IMG/VR virus record: IMGVR_UViG_3300005935_000166 | Location: 1-21,826 of that record | DNA length: 21,826 nt | Source of the DNA: a virus | Reading direction: 5' to 3' (one strand) | Part shown: positions 2,432 through 11,621 of the stretch, piece by piece | Position numbering within the stretch: the first letter of the stretch is position 1 | How the letters are laid out: every line of letters begins with the position of its first letter | Notes under the pieces: model-generated | Told to the model about the DNA's origin: nothing | The model's input: the letters and a program-made list of their open reading frames with translations, nothing else | Database searches by the model: none | Made by a program: the position numbers and the translations under genes

Positions 2432-3244
2432 TCAACTTAATTTTTGTAAAATTACATCCTTCCTACTGGAACCAAATACTCTTTTACATACAGACCTACT
2501 AGCAAAACCAAAATTTTTCACTTCTTTCCAAGTCGGAAGTCTTTTATTTTTTAATAAATAATTCTCATACTCAGCTATAACTTCATCTTTATTATATTTG
2601 GGGAAAAAATCTTTTTCTTTTCTTGCTAAGTAACTATTTTTCTTACCTAATTCTTTTTTTTCTTGTATCTTTTTGTCACTTATACCCCATAATTTTAATG
2701 CATCATAATAACTTCCAATTCTTAATTCTATTACACTCCTAATTCCACCATCAAGCTCTTTCCACGTGGGTATTCTTCCAAGATTTTTATATATTTTATA
2801 AAATTTATATTTTATTTGTAAATCACAAGTGCCAAATTTATTATTATATTGTATTGCATTTTTTTTATGTCTTTTAACAAATTTTCCAGACGAATGTAAT
2901 TTTTTATTATTACTTTGCAAAAGTTTTACTCTATTTTTCTTTTCTTTTTCATTCAAATTTATAAAATTATCCCTTATTTTATTACTCGTATTTTCACACA
3001 CAAGCGGAGTAAAATTACTTAATCCAACCATCTCTCTGTATTCCTCACAATTCATTCTATTATGTTTGTGCCAAATATGTTTAGTAACACTTTTATATAA
3101 TCCACCACATACATGACATTGTATTTTACCAGTGCTAATGCTTTGCAATATTACACCATAATATCCAAACCCATCTTTATAACTCATGAATGGTGGTTCT
3201 GATTTATAAAGCGGATATAAATCTCCATCTAAAAATTCACTCAT
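2432..3244 (-). CDS. DNA-binding protein with MucR/Ros-like zinc finger and two HNR repeats
   Basis: Residues 40-75 contain C43-x2-C46, H56 and H61 followed by EEYREMVGL, closely resembling the zinc-finger core of Ros/MucR regulators. A lysine-rich linker follows. Two repeats, one with GRIPTWKEL...GSYYDALKLWG and one with RLPTWKEV...GSSRKDVI, match homing-endonuclease-associated repeats (HNR), small DNA-contacting units usually found C-terminal to HNH or LAGLIDADG nucleases. No nuclease motif is seen, so this looks like a binding protein built from endonuclease parts: a regulator or a site-specific recruiter. It ends one base before the start-side neighbour's stop region (two-base gap to the 172-residue gene), indicating co-transcription. 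The domain order is unusual. Confidence 0.65.
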   Translation of the reverse strand: MSEFLDGDLYPLYKSEPPFMSYKDGFGYYGVILQSISTGKIQCHVCGGLYKSVTKHIWHKHNRMNCEEYREMVGLSNFTPLVCENTSNKIRDNFINLNEKEKKNRVKLLQSNNKKLHSSGKFVKRHKKNAIQYNNKFGTCDLQIKYKFYKIYKNLGRIPTWKELDGGIRSVIELRIGSYYDALKLWGISDKKIQEKKELGKKNSYLARKEKDFFPKYNKDEVIAEYENYLLKNKRLPTWKEVKNFGFASRSVCKRVFGSSRKDVILQKLS

Positions 3245-3245
3245 A

Positions 3246-3764
3246 CTATTTTTTTAATTTAATTAAAAACTTTTTAAATTGATTTGTGAAAAAATCTCTC
3301 TCTTTTTGCCATTTTTCTTCATTGACATTATTCCTGTTAGAAATATCTAGCCATGTCTCAAAAGCCAAGATAATCTCATCTATTTTATAAGTTGTCCTAG
3401 GTTTACCTACATCATCTTTTCTTTTACCTAAATATTTTTGCCGTATTTTAAACCAACTAACAGTCTTGTCAAAACTTTCTAATACATCATAAACTTTGTC
3501 AAACATCTTTCGAAATTTTATACAATCATATAAGTCACTAACACTCAAACCAATATCCTTGCTAAAAGCTTCCATAAAAACACCACTACCATGTGCCAAT
3601 CTAACATAACCAGCATCATTAACAATTCTATCTCCTATCCCCCATTTACCCTCAATAACTTCCATTCTTGCCCTGTACTGAGTCTCAACAACAATACTTC
3701 TACAATCAACAACCATCCCATCATACCAATCCGCACTTTTAAAATTTATTAACTCCTTTTTCAT
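3246..3764 (-). CDS. Conserved phage-type protein of unknown function (172 aa)
   Basis: The protein has an N-terminal WYDGMVVDCRSIVVET-like helix, a GDRIVND segment, a central helical part with KDIGLSVSDLYDCIKF, and VSWFKIRQKYLG. This helical layout resembles phage proteins related to the N-terminal region of YhcG/DUF1016 and to initiator-like DNA-binding proteins, where the LS.SDLY helix would be HTH-like. No enzymatic motif is visible. The ATG has a good AAGAGGAG ribosome binding site. It lies directly downstream of the origin-like gap with a DnaA box and AT-rich repeats, so a replication or regulatory role is a reasonable guess only. Confidence 0.6.
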   Translation of the reverse strand: MKKELINFKSADWYDGMVVDCRSIVVETQYRARMEVIEGKWGIGDRIVNDAGYVRLAHGSGVFMEAFSKDIGLSVSDLYDCIKFRKMFDKVYDVLESFDKTVSWFKIRQKYLGKRKDDVGKPRTTYKIDEIILAFETWLDISNRNNVNEEKWQKERDFFTNQFKKFLIKLKK

Positions 3765-4047
3765 ACTCCTCTTAATAGTAATTTTAGTCTTTATATATAA
3801 GTAATAATAATAATAAGTAAGTTAATAACTTTTAATTTTTGCCAAAAACAGCTATTCCTTGGCTAAACTTAGTTAAATATTTATCCACAACACCTGTTAA
3901 TAACTTATTAATAACTCTATATATATCTGTTAATAAAATGTTTACAACTTTATACTACCACGGAGATAAGATATAAGATTGCTTTTGGCTTTTGCACTCT
4001 AGCAATAGCACCAAATTAGGCTCTTTACTTTCCGTAATAGTAGATAA
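3765..4047. other. Origin-like AT-rich intergenic region with DnaA box and 9-mer repeats
   Basis: This 283-base gap contains a perfect DnaA box TTATCCACA (3881-3889) and three exact copies of TTAATAACT (3822-3830, 3897-3905, 3908-3916), the last two spaced 11 bases, one helical turn. A run of TAA triplets lies at about 3804-3816 and an ATATAT stretch at 3919-3926. It sits beside the stand-alone DnaA domain IV gene. DnaA box plus iterated AT-rich 9-mers plus a cognate-type protein is the classical arrangement of a replication origin or of a DnaA-controlled promoter. Part 3968-4047 shows nothing I recognise. Confidence 0.45.
3920..3947 (-). promoter_or_regulatory. Possible promoter for the genes at 3764 and beyond
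   Basis: On the minus strand TTGTAA (3942-3947) is followed after 16 bases by TATATA (3920-3925). The two 11-base-spaced TTAATAACT repeats and the DnaA box lie just downstream of the -10. The leader to the ATG at 3764 would be about 150 nt. In DNA this AT-rich such matches arise easily by chance. Confidence 0.3.
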
Positions 4048-4326
4048 TTACAAACATTTTTCAACATATTTGTCAACCAATCTTTGCAAATATGGTCTAT
4101 TTTCAATCCTCTTAACGAGATTAATTACAGTTGTGTGGTCACTCCGATTAATTAATTTTTTAATTTTATTAAGCGGATAACCGATCTGTAAAAAAACATT
4201 TGCAACTATACATCTGACATCAACTAAATCAAAATCTCTTTTTCTGCTTTTTAATTGATACAATGTAATGCCATTGTCTTTACAAATCATTTTTACAATT
4301 TCATCGTCTTTGATTCTTATATTCAT
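4048..4326 (-). CDS. Stand-alone DnaA domain IV (DNA-binding domain) protein
   Basis: The 92-residue product corresponds to the DnaA C-terminal DNA-binding domain only. SRKR (27-30) and R38 match the basic region of the HTH; S62-DHTTV (63-67) is the DnaA signature, equivalent to E. coli D433-H434-T435-T436, which read the DnaA box in the major groove. The AAA+ ATPase and helicase-loading domains are absent, so it can bind TTATCCACA-type boxes but cannot itself melt DNA. It could compete with host DnaA, mark a phage origin, or control transcription. It has its own promoter with a DnaA-like box between -35 and -10. That -10 is so near the ATG that the transcript should be leaderless or nearly so. 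Confidence 0.9.
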   Translation of the reverse strand: MNIRIKDDEIVKMICKDNGITLYQLKSRKRDFDLVDVRCIVANVFLQIGYPLNKIKKLINRSDHTTVINLVKRIENRPYLQRLVDKYVEKCL

Positions 4327-4334
4327 ATGCTAGA

Positions 4335-4363
4335 ATTGTACCATAATTTTAATCCACAATCAA
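4335..4363 (-). promoter_or_regulatory. Promoter of the DnaA-domain gene, with DnaA-like box in the spacer
   Basis: On the minus strand TTGATT (4358-4363), a 17-base spacer and TACAAT (4335-4340) form a good sigma-70 promoter. The spacer holds TAATCCACA (4350-4358), one mismatch from the DnaA box. The predicted start of transcription is within a few bases of the ATG at 4326. The layout suggests autorepression by the encoded DnaA domain or control by host DnaA. Confidence 0.6.
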
Positions 4364-4412: not shown

Positions 4413-5180
4413 TTAAAACGGTATATCATCAACATTAATACCCTCTCTTGATTCAATATCCAAATCAGTCTTCTTTGTTGGTTTTTCTACCTGAATGACG
4501 GGCAATTCTTCCTTATCTTCTTTGTCATCTTTTTTCTTAGTGCTTTCCCAATTCATTTTTTCAGGATCCAATCCAGCCTCCTGTGCCGCTTTTTTCTTCA
4601 TTGAAGTAACAAACCTTTCAGGATCAATGTTAGCTTTTCGTACTTTAGTTTTTTCTTCTTCTGATAACTCATTATTTAGACTATTAATAACTAAATCAGC
4701 AGAATAAGTAGTCCTTCCGTCTGTTTTTTTAGTTACATCAATATCAAAACTAGGAGAACCATCTTTATTGAACGGATAATCTTCTTTATTACTCCATTCA
4801 CTGATTCTCTTGCTAATTGAATAAGGTATTTTAGCAATTTTTACATCACCATCATTCCTATCAATCACACCACAAACCATTTGAACCGAGACACCTGGCA
4901 AATTATTAATTAACTTTTTCTTTTCATCATCATCAACATCTTGTCTGGCATAAATCTCTGCTACATCTTTTTGAACTTCAACACAAATTTTACATCCTCT
5001 ATGCATACCAAAACAAGTGCTAGCTTTTCCACTAATCCAATGGTTACCCAACGGCTTAAAACCAGTAACTATTCTAATTCTGTAAGTACCATCTTCTTTA
5101 AAATTAAGATAAGTGGTTTCATATTTTTTTCCAGTAGAATATTCCTCTCTTGTTTGTTCCATAGCTTTGTTTATATCCAT
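4413..5180 (-). CDS. Single-stranded DNA-binding protein, gp32-like
   Basis: The 255-residue protein has an OB-type N-terminal half (GTYRIRIVTGFKPLGNHWI, then VQMVCGVIDRNDG) with a zinc-site candidate C56, H60, C63, C66. A charged linker follows, and the extreme C-terminus is acidic with DDIPF. The DDIPF tip is the classic protein-interaction tail of bacterial SSBs and many phage ssDNA-binding proteins; the zinc knuckle within the OB region recalls T4 gp32. It would coat single strands during phage replication and recombination and recruit partners such as the neighbouring nuclease and resolvase. It is transcribed with the recombination genes. Family is inferred from layout and tail rather than strong sequence identity. 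Confidence 0.75.
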   Translation of the reverse strand: MDINKAMEQTREEYSTGKKYETTYLNFKEDGTYRIRIVTGFKPLGNHWISGKASTCFGMHRGCKICVEVQKDVAEIYARQDVDDDEKKKLINNLPGVSVQMVCGVIDRNDGDVKIAKIPYSISKRISEWSNKEDYPFNKDGSPSFDIDVTKKTDGRTTYSADLVINSLNNELSEEEKTKVRKANIDPERFVTSMKKKAAQEAGLDPEKMNWESTKKKDDKEDKEELPVIQVEKPTKKTDLDIESREGINVDDIPF

Positions 5181-5406: not shown

Positions 5407-6414
5407 TTAAAGTCCTTTATTTTTAATATAATTAGCTTTTATCTCATCATTCTTATCCTTAATTTCGCCCTTAATCGAACCTACCCAATCTTCAAGATTT
5501 TTAAATCCCGTCAATCGTTTAGGCCACATTGACCTTTCAATTTCCCAGTTCTTTTCATAACAACCAGTAATAACATACTTTTCTTTATTCTTCTGAAATC
5601 TTATCTTACCTCGTTTATTAAATACAACATTATCAGGTTTTGGAGGTTCTTGTTTTTTTCTTATAAACTCTGACATTTCAGTCATATCTTTGTCATACTT
5701 TTCAACCAATTTTTTATCATTCAAAAAAACAGGAAATTCTGCTGTTACTAAATCATCCTTACTGATATATAACACTCTACCCTCTTGAATATTATTAGCT
5801 TTTATATAAGCATAACATTGTAGAGTATGCCACGGGTATGCTTCTTGTAAATAATCTTTCTTGTGCCAAAAAGCCATTGAGTTAATCGACTTCACTTCAT
5901 AAATTAATTCAGGTAAACCATTTGGATATTTTTCAATTAATTTTTCAACCATCAATAAAGTTCTTTCCTTAACAAAATCTGAAAATTCCATCTGCTCACA
6001 AAGTTGTTTTGCCTTATCATGATTAGGTTTACCGCCAGCTAAAACGTCATACTTACCTAACATTTTTAAGTGGTTTTTTGTTGGTTCAATAATTGACCAG
6101 CCACTATCATCTTGAGAATTGATAAAAATTCCACAAGCCTTAAAGACATTTTTAAGTAAGTTATGAAATTCATCACCTGCGGAGAATATCCTTAGAACTC
6201 TATCCTCAAATTGTCTTTCCTCAGGAACTCCCATCATTTTTTGATAACGTTCCCAGTAATTTTTACCCAAATCACTAGGACTAATATAATCCCTGACTTT
6301 TGGTTCCCTTCTTTTTGTTAGATTGAGATTATCATTCCAAATTCCCTGAATAGACCACTTCATATCCTTCAATCTTTCTTCTTCTCTTTTAGTTGTTTCT
6401 TCTTGTTTTGTCAT
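5407..6414 (-). CDS. PD-(D/E)XK nuclease of the RecB/Cas4 group
   Basis: The 335-residue protein has the ordered motifs of RecB-like exonucleases: GDEFHNLL with H84, D123 in GKYDVLA, E173-V-K175 in LIYEVKS, and Q199-C-Y-A-Y203 (QxxxY). The N-terminal YISPSDLG region is also usual. Such phage proteins resect DNA ends for recombination or repair, and Cas4-like members may carry an iron-sulphur cluster. Here only scattered cysteines are seen (C94, C139, C200), so a cluster is not supported. The C-terminal 90 residues are lysine-rich. It is upstream of the SSB gene in the same direction and probably works with the SSB and resolvase. No clear ribosome binding site precedes the ATG. Confidence 0.85.
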   Translation of the reverse strand: MTKQEETTKREEERLKDMKWSIQGIWNDNLNLTKRREPKVRDYISPSDLGKNYWERYQKMMGVPEERQFEDRVLRIFSAGDEFHNLLKNVFKACGIFINSQDDSGWSIIEPTKNHLKMLGKYDVLAGGKPNHDKAKQLCEQMEFSDFVKERTLLMVEKLIEKYPNGLPELIYEVKSINSMAFWHKKDYLQEAYPWHTLQCYAYIKANNIQEGRVLYISKDDLVTAEFPVFLNDKKLVEKYDKDMTEMSEFIRKKQEPPKPDNVVFNKRGKIRFQKNKEKYVITGCYEKNWEIERSMWPKRLTGFKNLEDWVGSIKGEIKDKNDEIKANYIKNKGL

Positions 6415-6440: not shown

Positions 6441-6472
6441 TTAATAACTTTATACCACAATATTTATCCACA
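6441..6472. promoter_or_regulatory. Second DnaA box with TTAATAACT repeat
   Basis: In the 60-base gap between the nuclease and HTH genes there is a perfect TTATCCACA (6464-6472) and a copy of TTAATAACT (6441-6449), the same pair of elements as in the origin-like gap at 3765-4047. The two gaps also share AACTTTATAC next to them. It may be a DnaA-responsive promoter of the nuclease/SSB genes or part of a split origin. Confidence 0.5.
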
Positions 6473-7398: not shown

Positions 7399-7884
7399 TT
7401 AATAACATACCCATGCCTCAAATGATTCCCAAGACTGGTATATACTCATAGCATAACGAGTAGAGCAATACACATCAAAAGCACACTCTCTAGTTATATC
7501 GTGAAACTTCTCATTAATTTGCCAAATTCCTAAATCATAACTCCCATCAGTATTTTTATTAATAGCATAAGGATAAAATCTTGATTCACAATCGACTATT
7601 CTCATAGCTGTTACCTTTTCATTTAAGCTAAGATCATACTCATCAGTCATTATCTCCCAAACATGATCAGCTATTGTCATATCAGTAGCCTTTATTTGTT
7701 CAGATTTGGCTGTTTTTGGAGTTTTAGCGTATAAGTCGTTAATTAATACCAACTCAGTATTTACTCCCTGAAAAGCCACTAAAACAGACGACACACCGAC
7801 CAACACGGAAAAGAATAAAATCAAGTTTTTTTTCTTATTAATTTCTCTTTTTTTTGTACGGTACTTTTTTGTTTTTGTTTTCAT
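7399..7884 (-). CDS. Membrane-anchored lytic transglycosylase/lysozyme-like protein
   Basis: A very basic N-terminus (residues 1-19) precedes one hydrophobic segment (20-38), so the protein should sit in the membrane with its C-terminal domain outside. That domain (about 85-161) contains the catalytic-type glutamate E100 in DCESRFYPYAIN, then YDLGIWQIN (117-124), AMSIYQSW and a final W..W pattern, as in SLT-type transglycosylases that cleave peptidoglycan. Four cysteines (C99, C134, C140, C160) may form disulphides outside the cytoplasm. It is encoded in the leftward early-type arm rather than with the virion genes, so it may serve lysis or wall remodelling after infection. No holin was recognised, but its own anchor recalls SAR-type endolysins. 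Confidence 0.75.
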   Translation of the reverse strand: MKTKTKKYRTKKREINKKKNLILFFSVLVGVSSVLVAFQGVNTELVLINDLYAKTPKTAKSEQIKATDMTIADHVWEIMTDEYDLSLNEKVTAMRIVDCESRFYPYAINKNTDGSYDLGIWQINEKFHDITRECAFDVYCSTRYAMSIYQSWESFEAWVCY

Positions 7885-8047: not shown

Positions 8048-8257
8048 TTATTGTTTTATTAATTCACCTTGGCTGTCTTCTCTATACTCAACCTCACAAT
8101 CTGGATTGTCACAAATCCAAGTTCCAGTCATTGCCCAAAGCTCAAAAGCTTTTCTTACTCCAACCCTTTCAGGTCTTAGTTCAAATTCGCCACATTTAGG
8201 ACATTTATAAACTTCTTCTTCTACACTAATACCTCTTTGTAATTTTTTTACATTCAT
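8048..8257 (-). CDS. Zinc-ribbon protein (69 aa)
   Basis: C19-x2-C22 and C49-x4-C54 frame a segment with ELWAMTGTWIC, resembling small phage zinc ribbons. It is the second gene of the leftward operon, six bases after the first. The start at MNVKKL is preceded by an A-rich stretch and no Shine-Dalgarno. Partner and role are not visible. Confidence 0.6.
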   Translation of the reverse strand: MNVKKLQRGISVEEEVYKCPKCGEFELRPERVGVRKAFELWAMTGTWICDNPDCEVEYREDSQGELIKQ

Positions 8258-8263
8258 ATTTTT

Positions 8264-8368
8264 TTAGTTTAAATAATCTTCTAACATTTGTTCGGCTTCA
8301 TCCTCTACCTTTTCTTGAGAACCAACTTTTTTAAATCTAGCCTCAAGTTCTTTTGTCATTAACTTCAT
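8264..8368 (-). CDS. First gene of the leftward operon; 34 aa, like the N-terminus of DUF2958 proteins
   Basis: The product begins MKLMTKELEARFKKVGSQE, which resembles from memory the first 20 residues of DUF2958-type proteins common on phages and plasmids; those are about 100 residues or more. Here the reading frame ends after an acidic helix (EDEAEQMLEDYL). It may be a truncated remnant kept as a short peptide or an independent small protein. It lies about 25 bases after the predicted transcription start of the leftward promoter. An internal ATG (8357-8359) is an alternative start. Confidence 0.5.
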   Translation of the reverse strand: MKLMTKELEARFKKVGSQEKVEDEAEQMLEDYLN

Positions 8369-8399
8369 AATTTTTTTTCTCTTTATTTATTATGAGTTG

Positions 8400-8428
8400 A
8401 TTGTACTACGCGCCTATACCTATGTCAA
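8400..8428 (-). promoter_or_regulatory. Strong leftward promoter
   Basis: On the minus strand a perfect -35 TTGACA (8423-8428) is followed by a 17-base spacer and -10 TACAAT (8400-8405). Transcription would start near 8393, giving a leader of about 25 nt before the first ATG at 8368. It should drive the whole small-gene run of the left arm. The spacer contains CTATACCTAT (plus-strand reading, 8414-8423), which recurs at 8525-8534, so it may be an operator. Confidence 0.8.
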
Positions 8429-8440
8429 GGCATTTTGTAT

Positions 8441-8474
8441 AAAAAAACAGGTCAATCTATTGGCTAGATTAACC
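8441..8474 (-). terminator. Leftward rho-independent terminator upstream of the leftward promoter
   Basis: The arms 8450-8459 and 8465-8474 pair at 9 of 10 positions (plus one wobble) around a 5-base loop. Reading on the minus strand the stem is followed by seven U residues (8441-8447). It would stop transcripts arriving from the right before they enter the leftward promoter, insulating the two arms. Confidence 0.65.
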
Positions 8475-8498
8475 CATTTCTTATTTATATTATAATAC

Positions 8499-8507
8499 TT
8501 ATCCACA
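8499..8507. promoter_or_regulatory. DnaA box in the control region
   Basis: A third perfect TTATCCACA. Its flanks (TTATCCACAACAC) match those of the box at 3881. Next to it on the minus strand is TATAAT (8491-8496 region) without a good -35. Confidence 0.55.
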
Positions 8508-8542
8508 ACACCCAAATTATTTGACTATACCTATCTATAAAA

Positions 8543-8613
8543 AGAGCAGAACCACATAATATGAAAGGGGGTATGAAAGGGGGAATGATATACCCCAAGT
8601 ATGATTCTGCTCT
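8543..8613. repeat. Hairpin element enclosing a 12-base G-rich tandem repeat
   Basis: Perfect 9-base arms AGAGCAGAA (8543-8551) and TTCTGCTCT (8605-8613) enclose two adjacent copies of TATGAAAGGGGG (8560-8571 and 8572-8583) and a CCCC (8593-8596) able to pair with either G-run. On the minus strand the outer stem is followed by a U-run, so it could be a leftward terminator with a large loop. On the plus strand it could be a small structured RNA with two alternative inner pairings. A 21-codon ORF (8561-8626) runs through it, but has no ribosome binding site. Confidence 0.5.
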
Positions 8614-8777
8614 CTTTGGCAATTAGTTAAATTGTTTATCACTGCTTTTTTCATATTAATTTAATAATACATTAATTTTATTTTCTTGTAAACACTTAAA
8701 TTATGCACAGTTTTTAGATCACAACATAAAAATTTTTATTTGTAAAATTAAAAAAAATATAAAAATAGTTTCTATAT

Positions 8778-8806
8778 TTTACTAAAGGTGAGATTTGTGT
8801 CATAAT
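8778..8806 (+). promoter_or_regulatory. Possible rightward promoter 1
   Basis: TTTACT (8778-8783), a 17-base spacer and CATAAT (8801-8806). The -10 overlaps a GTCATA half-site (8799-8804), so a bound regulator would block it. Weaker than promoter 2. Confidence 0.4.
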
Positions 8807-8826
8807 AAATTCGTGTCAACCTAGCG

Positions 8827-8841
8827 GTCATACAGTATGAC
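8827..8841. promoter_or_regulatory. Palindromic operator GTCATA-cag-TATGAC
   Basis: A perfect 6-base inverted repeat with a 3-base centre ends four bases before the -35 of rightward promoter 2. Further half-sites are at 8799-8804 (GTCATA), 8931-8936 (TATGAC) and 8977-8982 (GTCATA). The spacing fits a dimeric activator or repressor acting on the late promoter. The regulator is unknown; the winged-helix and HTH proteins of the left arm are candidates. Confidence 0.55.
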
Positions 8842-8844
8842 TAT

Positions 8845-8873
8845 TTTACAAAAAGTTAGAAATAGTGTATAAT
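8845..8873 (+). promoter_or_regulatory. Rightward promoter 2 (main late promoter candidate)
   Basis: TTTACA (8845-8850), a 17-base spacer and a perfect TATAAT (8868-8873) preceded by TG. The start would be near 8880, giving a leader of about 210 nt before the terminator at 9063-9092 and the terminase genes. The palindrome at 8827-8841 lies just upstream. Confidence 0.7.
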
Positions 8874-9062
8874 GTTAGTGATGGAAAATACTCTAGTTAA
8901 TGGAGTAACTCTTTAACTGGTTTATGGAGGTATGACATTTTGCTTATTTGTTAAAATGATGAAACAATATAGATCAGTCATAAATTTTAGTAAGTAAGTA
9001 AAAGTTATAAATTCAAATCTATATAATATGTATTCACAAATCTTTATTAATTATCAATTTTA

Positions 9063-9092
9063 AATACTAAAATCTTTTTTAGTATTTTTTTT
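9063..9092 (+). terminator. Rho-independent terminator directly before the small terminase gene
   Basis: AATACTAAAA (9063-9072) and TTTTAGTATT (9077-9086) form a perfect 10-base stem with a 4-base loop, and the T-run reaches 9092. The terminase ATG is at 9095. Transcripts from the rightward promoters must pass it, so it should act as a gate on the late operon. The stem is A/T-rich, so strength is uncertain. Confidence 0.7.
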
Positions 9093-9094
9093 AT

Positions 9095-9529: not shown

Positions 9530-10757
9530 GATACCAATTGAATATAAAAGGTTGTTTGACAATGATTGGAGAGAAGCTGCTATATATGGTGGTAGGTTTT
9601 CCTTGAAATCACATACAGTTGCTCGTTTTTTATTGATAAGTGCAAGAGAAAAAAAAATTAGGATAGCTTGTTTTCGTGAGTTTCAAAATTCAATAGCAGA
9701 TAGTTCTCATCAGTTATTATCTGAATTGATTAAGAAATATAATTTTAATGAGTTTCAAATAACTAACAATACAATTCTTAATAAAACGACTGGATCGGAT
9801 TTCTTATTTAAAGGATTACATAATAACGAACAGAGTGTTAAATCAACTGAAGGTATAGATATAGCTTGGGTTGAAGAAGCTCAAACTGTATCTGAAAATA
9901 GTCTTGAAATATTAACACCTACTATTAGGAAAAAAGGTTCAAAGATTATATATACATATAATAGATTATTAGAAAATGATCCTGTTCATACAAGATTAGT
10001 TGAGCAAGGACGACCAAATACACTTATTATAAATACAAATTATGACATAGCTATCAAGTATAAGATGATGCCTGATGTTATTTTAAAAGAGATTGAAGAT
10101 GATAAAATAAGTAGGCCAGCACTTTATAAACACAAATGGTTGGGTGAACCAAACAGTTTAGAACTAAAAATTTATAGAAATTGGCAACAAGTTGATAATG
10201 TACCTCATGAAGCTAGATTAGAAGCAACTTGGTTAGACTTCGGATATTCAGTAGATCCAAGTGCTAGCGGTAGGATATATTATTATAATGGTGGTTGGAT
10301 ATTTAAAGAGTTATTATATAGAAAAGGGATGAGCAACAGGCAGTTAGCTAATTTCTTGAATGCTTTAGATAATCCACAGACATTAGTTATAGCTGATAGT
10401 GCTGAACCAAAGAGTATTGATGAAATAAGGAGTTACGGTTTAAATATAATTGGATGTAAAAAAGGTAAGGATAGTGTAAATACTGGCATTCAGTTGGTTC
10501 AAGATCAACCAATATCAGTTACAAAAGGAAGTAACAATATTTGGCAAGAATATCAAAACTATTTTTGGTTAATTGATAATAATGGTAGGATTGTAAATAA
10601 AGAAGATCCTAGTTGTGCTAATCATCACATGTCCGGTATAAGATATGTTTTGGCAAATTTAGGTAGACTTAAACAAGAAGAGGATTACTGGGATAGGGCT
10701 TTTAAAGAAGAATTAGATCCAAATACATATAAAAAACAATTCAATAAAGGTAAATAA
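9507..10757 (+). CDS. terL: Terminase large subunit (PBSX/Terminase_3 group)
   Basis: The N-terminal ATPase has Walker A GGRFSLKS (28-35), Walker B with IDIAWVEE (117-124, E124 catalytic) and a YTYNR coupling motif (149-153). The RNase H-fold nuclease has D244 in WLDFGYSVDPSA, D297-region VIADSAEP and D in DPSCANHHMSG near residue 372. It translocates DNA into the procapsid and cuts it. At 416 residues it is of normal length for the group. All catalytic residues appear intact. Confidence 0.95.
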   Translation: MEKLKTIEIPIEYKRLFDNDWREAAIYGGRFSLKSHTVARFLLISAREKKIRIACFREFQNSIADSSHQLLSELIKKYNFNEFQITNNTILNKTTGSDFLFKGLHNNEQSVKSTEGIDIAWVEEAQTVSENSLEILTPTIRKKGSKIIYTYNRLLENDPVHTRLVEQGRPNTLIINTNYDIAIKYKMMPDVILKEIEDDKISRPALYKHKWLGEPNSLELKIYRNWQQVDNVPHEARLEATWLDFGYSVDPSASGRIYYYNGGWIFKELLYRKGMSNRQLANFLNALDNPQTLVIADSAEPKSIDEIRSYGLNIIGCKKGKDSVNTGIQLVQDQPISVTKGSNNIWQEYQNYFWLIDNNGRIVNKEDPSCANHHMSGIRYVLANLGRLKQEEDYWDRAFKEELDPNTYKKQFNKGK

Positions 10758-11462: not shown

Positions 11463-11621
11463 ATGACTGACAATAAACCAATCTTAACACCATTACAAAA
11501 AGCAGAAGCAGAAAAAGTAAAAGCACAACAAGATATAGTTATTAAAATACATAAATTACTAGAGGATAACAAATTAACCTTAGTAGTAGGACAAAATATT
11601 AAAGTCGTGCCAAAGCAATAG
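11463..11621 (+). CDS. Small hypothetical protein (52 aa)
   Basis: The ORF begins two bases after the previous stop. The product is helical and charged at first (LQKAEAEKVKAQQDIVIKIHKLLEDN) and ends LTLVVGQNIKVVPKQ, a beta-like tail. The periodic first half could form a short coiled coil. No motif recognised. Tight spacing to the gene before supports it as real. Confidence 0.5.
   Translation: MTDNKPILTPLQKAEAEKVKAQQDIVIKIHKLLEDNKLTLVVGQNIKVVPKQ

Follow-up and report, generated by a model that had tools for sequence, protein, structure and literature searches.

Using profile searches, a structure model and the comparison of related phage records, we obtained good support for the proposal that the open reading frame at 4048-4326 of the window (the whole stretch of DNA analysed, an IMG/VR virus record of 21.8 kb) encodes a stand-alone DnaA domain IV of phage type in which the box-reading residues are intact. 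We propose that this protein binds DnaA boxes and thereby regulates its own gene and the left-arm transcription units, sharing its sites with the host DnaA, a reading that we regard as having about an even chance of being right. Stand-alone domain IV phage proteins are already annotated and common, a comparison of viral structures (BFVD) showing many phage entries under the name 'Chromosomal replication initiator, DnaA C-terminal'; the new part is the set of sites.

The identity of the 92-residue protein is supported by the following lines of evidence. First, the Bac_DnaA_C family (PF08299) matched its residues 8-74 with 38.7 bits (cut-off 31.5; E 1e-9). Second, the best solved structure matching its AlphaFold model (pLDDT 91.5) was 1J1V (Z 12.9; 88 residues superposed with an rmsd of 1.8), in which the E. 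coli domain IV is bound to a DnaA box, and the top rows of the VIA structure comparison were all DnaA chains (Z 10.3-12.9), the next family scoring 6.4. Third, a profile made from a 12-member phage alignment also found 1J1V as its best solved match (E 1.1e-16), with further DnaA structures ranking behind it. A profile was needed for the structural match, as the PHROGs search with the 92-residue protein gave a marginal match (E 0.055) and the single-sequence phmmer search of the PDB gave none. Fourth, in the profile alignment the SRKR residues fall on the E. coli SKRR, R30 on R399, R38 on R407 and DHTT (63-66) on 433-436; across the 12 phage proteins R38 and D63-N69 are invariant and R30 nearly so. 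In E. coli DnaA, R399 is the minor-groove reader, and the TnCACA half of the DnaA box is recognised by the helix spanning 434-451 (PMC5742627). Hence the domain IV fold is predicted by the model and the contact residues are kept, in agreement with the original prediction of a conserved box-reading motif (SRKR, R38, SDHTTV).

The phage protein shares with 1J1V the fold and the box-contacting residues R399, R407 and D433-T436, but it is free-standing, about 19% identical and devoid of domains I-III. Domain I, which makes the helicase and loader contacts, is missing, just seven residues preceding the domain IV match, and so is the AAA+ domain III with its Walker motifs, a feature of full-length DnaA. 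No AAA+ Bac_DnaA domain (PF00308) was found anywhere in the window record or in the related phage G020 (L021), which upholds the predicted lack of an ATPase domain and rules out a full DnaA split over two genes.

A single-protein viral scan with the 92-residue protein found no relative. In all, 19 further viral contigs with relatives were found, most of these being short stand-alone proteins. Phage proteins named 'DnaA C-terminal' (BFVD; Rhizobium phage RHph_N28_2; the 'DnaA protein' of Cellulophaga phage phi19:1) carry the same isolated Bac_DnaA_C domain, but, among the relatives checked, the window and G020 alone have a box at the promoter of the gene. At the other stand-alone domain IV phage loci examined, no DnaA box better than 7/9 was found within 200 nt upstream, so that the boxed promoter is a trait of this lineage and not a general rule of the family. 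In the open papers searched, we found no functional study of a phage stand-alone domain IV. The HuH transposases with a Bac_DnaA_C tail (PMC6006769) also reuse domain IV in a mobile element, but there it is fused to a nuclease and the flanking repeats are unlike DnaA boxes, which are present in the phage.

Table 1. Features of the window bearing on the domain IV gene and its candidate sites.
Feature	Position	Strand	Remarks
Stand-alone DnaA domain IV protein, 92 aa, without AAA+ domain	4048..4326	−	ATG start
Candidate promoter TTGATT-N17-TACAAT with extended −10 (TGGTACAAT)	4335..4363	−	−10 ends 8 nt before ATG; no Shine-Dalgarno
DnaA-like box TGTGGATTA (TAATCCACA on plus strand)	4350..4358	−	Inside spacer of candidate promoter; one base in common with −35
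Module copy 1, box and −10	4335..4360	−	Repeat family D1
Module copy 2, perfect box 6464-6472 and TGGTATAAA	6449..6474	−	Upstream of exonuclease gene; matches perfect L021 box at 7409
Module copy 3, perfect box 8499-8507 and TATAAA	8484..8509	−	Upstream of first left-arm unit; 79 nt upstream of TTGACA-N17-TACAAT
Perfect box, intergenic	3881..3889	−	Upstream of genes 3246-3764 and 2432-3244
Strong promoter-like site TTGACA-N17-TACAAT	8400..8428	−	For first left-arm unit
Probable single-stranded-DNA-binding protein (SSB-like)	4413..5180	−	DDIPF tip at C-terminus; immediately precedes domain IV gene, as in L021
Cas4-type exonuclease-like protein	5407..6414	−	phrog_1990, E 4e-5; in unit behind box 6464

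The left arm of the window is transcribed leftward, and the right arm, which opens with packaging genes, rightward. The protein encoded just upstream of the domain IV gene had no match in a Pfam search and is presumably an SSB, a name suggested by its tip motif; it combines CxxC-type cysteines with the canonical DDIPF tip, and its counterpart in the related record L022 is 32% identical. Shine-Dalgarno sequences are missing before most window genes (1-20266), which suggests a host making little use of them, or leaderless mRNAs. A TET-associated-type glycosyltransferase gene adjoining a ParB-like gene (250-1011 and 990-1589) hints at DNA base modification. An assignment of the host through terminase relatives in genomes led to four scattered bins and was not used.

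All three perfect boxes (TTATCCACA) announced by the original prediction were found, at 3881, 6464 and 8499. In the whole window the degenerate TWATCCACA occurs five times, as compared with 0.64 expected (0/100 shuffles). Four of these boxes are in the left arm, where 0.32 is expected after shuffling, and all four lie between genes, in the same orientation and upstream of minus-strand genes; on the coding strand of the left-arm intergenic DNA they compare with 0.035 expected (0/2000 shuffles), an enrichment that is approximate since gene boundaries were taken from ORF calls. The fifth box (TAATCCACA at 10370) is within the terminase gene. Near the 3881 box, a TAATAATAATAATAA run (3800-3835) recalls the DnaA-trio repeats, yet it does not adjoin the box.

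Three of the left-arm boxes are part of a 26-nt direct-repeat unit spanning the box and a TAYAAW hexamer, which is the top-listed family of the 5.3-kb region. In these modules the box-to-−10 distance is 18 nt, two of the three copies have an extended −10 (TGGTAYAAW), and resampling gives a probability of about 1e-4 for the resemblance between the copies in the flanks outside the box. Beside the fourth box (3881) no −10 match of at least 5/6 was found. As anticipated, the candidate promoter of the domain IV gene has a DnaA-like box in its spacer. Promoter-like sites are not in excess between 2400 and 9200 (44 versus 41.5 in shuffles), a consensus match alone being not above chance, so that the case for this promoter is made by the repetition of the module and by the relatives.

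One comparison is with G020, a 37-kb record with the same gene order as the window, in which a 98-residue homologue (39% identical over 82 residues; Bac_DnaA_C, 42.5 bits) is encoded directly after the SSB-like gene. The only two perfect boxes of these 37 kb are at 11480, in the gap before the homologue and 51 nt before its ATG, and at 7409, in the one preceding the exonuclease unit; they match the 4350 and 6464 gaps of the window, a placement with a chance probability of about 7e-6. In addition, before the first left-arm unit a perfect TTGACA-N17-TATAAT is preceded, at distances of 108 and 74 nt, by two 8/9 boxes (4959 and 4993). They match the 8499 box of the window, which is similarly placed relative to the promoter-like site at 8428. 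This recurrence of positions in related phages supports, beyond the original prediction, the proposal that the boxes matter, as judged from sequence. SSB-based scans for further relatives returned G020 alone. The comparison of gene-bearing phages covers two, the window and G020. Two other features of this record may be mentioned: a protein with a sigma-70 region 4 is encoded just before the SSB gene (L021:9643-10602) and is missing at that place in the window, and adjacent genes resemble, by eye, a Ro60/TROVE protein and an RtcB RNA ligase, an RNA-repair pair (L021:13058-15735).

In G020 too the −10 (TATACT, 11517-11522) ends 8 nt before the ATG, which implies a nearly leaderless transcript in both phages. 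The position of the box relative to the promoter differs. In the window, a protein bound to the box would cover about −30 to −22, exclude the polymerase and thereby cap its own level, and this geometry fits the self-limitation proposed originally. In G020, the box-to-−10 distance is 37 nt instead of 18 nt and the box lies just upstream of a consensus −35, covering about −49 to −41, so that blocking is less obvious there and activation or another effect is possible. Consequently, a single mechanism for both phages is not secured and the sign of the regulation is not fixed. The bacterial dnaA genes offer a parallel, since their product binds DnaA boxes and their own promoter contains such a box (PMC8203912); the phage case differs by a single candidate box within the promoter and by the lack of an AAA+ domain, which makes a nucleotide switch impossible.

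Other relatives have boxes and no domain IV gene. L022, the exonuclease of which is 66% identical, carries its three perfect boxes before the first left-arm unit and before the exonuclease gene. These are the two gaps that match those of the window (chance placement about 6e-5), but the boxes run in the opposite orientation, and no domain IV gene was found in the 18.7-kb L022 record, which is a fragment. L048 (exonuclease 61% identical) has neither perfect boxes nor the gene. The terminase relatives, which have five boxes in 256 kb, yielded no domain IV, and the domain was found in none of 48 other phage contigs carrying the extended box TTGTGGATAARTATTNTG, which rules out this box as a signature of the protein. 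L022 and the 48 contigs indicate that the boxes of the lineage can exist without the phage protein, and they make the host DnaA a credible reader; they weaken the idea, implicit in the original prediction, that a box implies a protein of the phage's own, the own-promoter box being nevertheless present where the gene is. Separately, L054, L066, L078, L095 and L101, which lack a domain IV gene, have perfect DnaA boxes in tandem at a spacing of 13 bp (TTGTGGATAARTATTGTGGATAA), and these are possibly phage origins read by host DnaA.

These data bear on the possibility that host DnaA is the main reader of the boxes, regulating the left arm or helping phage replication to start, while the domain IV protein competes with it or modulates its action, at boxes of the phage or of the host. 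We view this as a serious though less probable alternative. It agrees with the L022 boxes, with the frequency of boxes without the gene in phages, some as tight tandem arrays, and with DnaA being known as both an activator and a repressor (PMC8203912). However, the gene of L022 could lie elsewhere, outside the fragment, L048 lacks the boxes as well as the gene, and the finding that both gene-bearing phages have a box at the promoter of this gene suggests self-control.

Several stand-alone domain IV genes of other phages have genes for a DnaB-like helicase, a primase or an ERF recombinase in their vicinity, which calls to mind an origin-binding replication component that would mark a left-arm DnaA-box origin (3765-4047 or 8258-9094), to be used by a helicase loader of the phage or of the host. 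The neighbours in the present phages point the same way: the window gene follows the SSB-like gene, and the homologue of G020 is followed by a gene for an HTH_36 protein, which we take to be of a kind frequently occurring as a phage replication protein. The GC skew of the window also changes sign near 8.6 kb, but this flip coincides with the divergent transcription. Moreover, the boxes are dispersed about 0.5-2 kb apart instead of clustered, no iteron array was found in 8250-9094 and no DnaB-type helicase in the present records, and a protein without an AAA+ domain is not expected to melt DNA. We thus regard an origin role as rather improbable. It is very unlikely that the protein serves to occupy the boxes of the host oriC and to slow host replication: it does keep the box-reading residues, and in the 1J1V crystal a DnaA box is bound by domain IV on its own, but the box at the promoter of the phage gene would hold the amount of protein down, whereas an effective titrant requires the reverse.

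Our preferred reading is therefore that of a regulator, in which a DNA-binding module equivalent to DnaA domain IV, without the ATPase or helicase-loading domains, would bind single boxes at the starts of left-arm transcription units (the first left-arm unit, the exonuclease unit, its own gene and the unit behind the 3881 box) and adjust their transcription. The host DnaA reads the same sequence, and the phage protein would displace or replace it at the phage boxes. We infer the binding itself, the sign of the regulation and the role of the phage protein, as opposed to host DnaA, as the main reader; the protein probably tunes the virus's own early genes.

Phage 'DnaA C-terminal' proteins are numerous in databases, and here one such protein is seen along with its likely operator sites. 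The conservation of positions in relatives makes the function directly testable, a regulator, an origin factor and a host inhibitor being separable. More tentatively, we suggest that in this phage lineage the early left-arm promoters are keyed to DnaA boxes, and that an ATPase-less domain IV of the phage's own takes them over from host DnaA. If this takeover is true, phage gene expression would be uncoupled from the replication-timing protein of the host.
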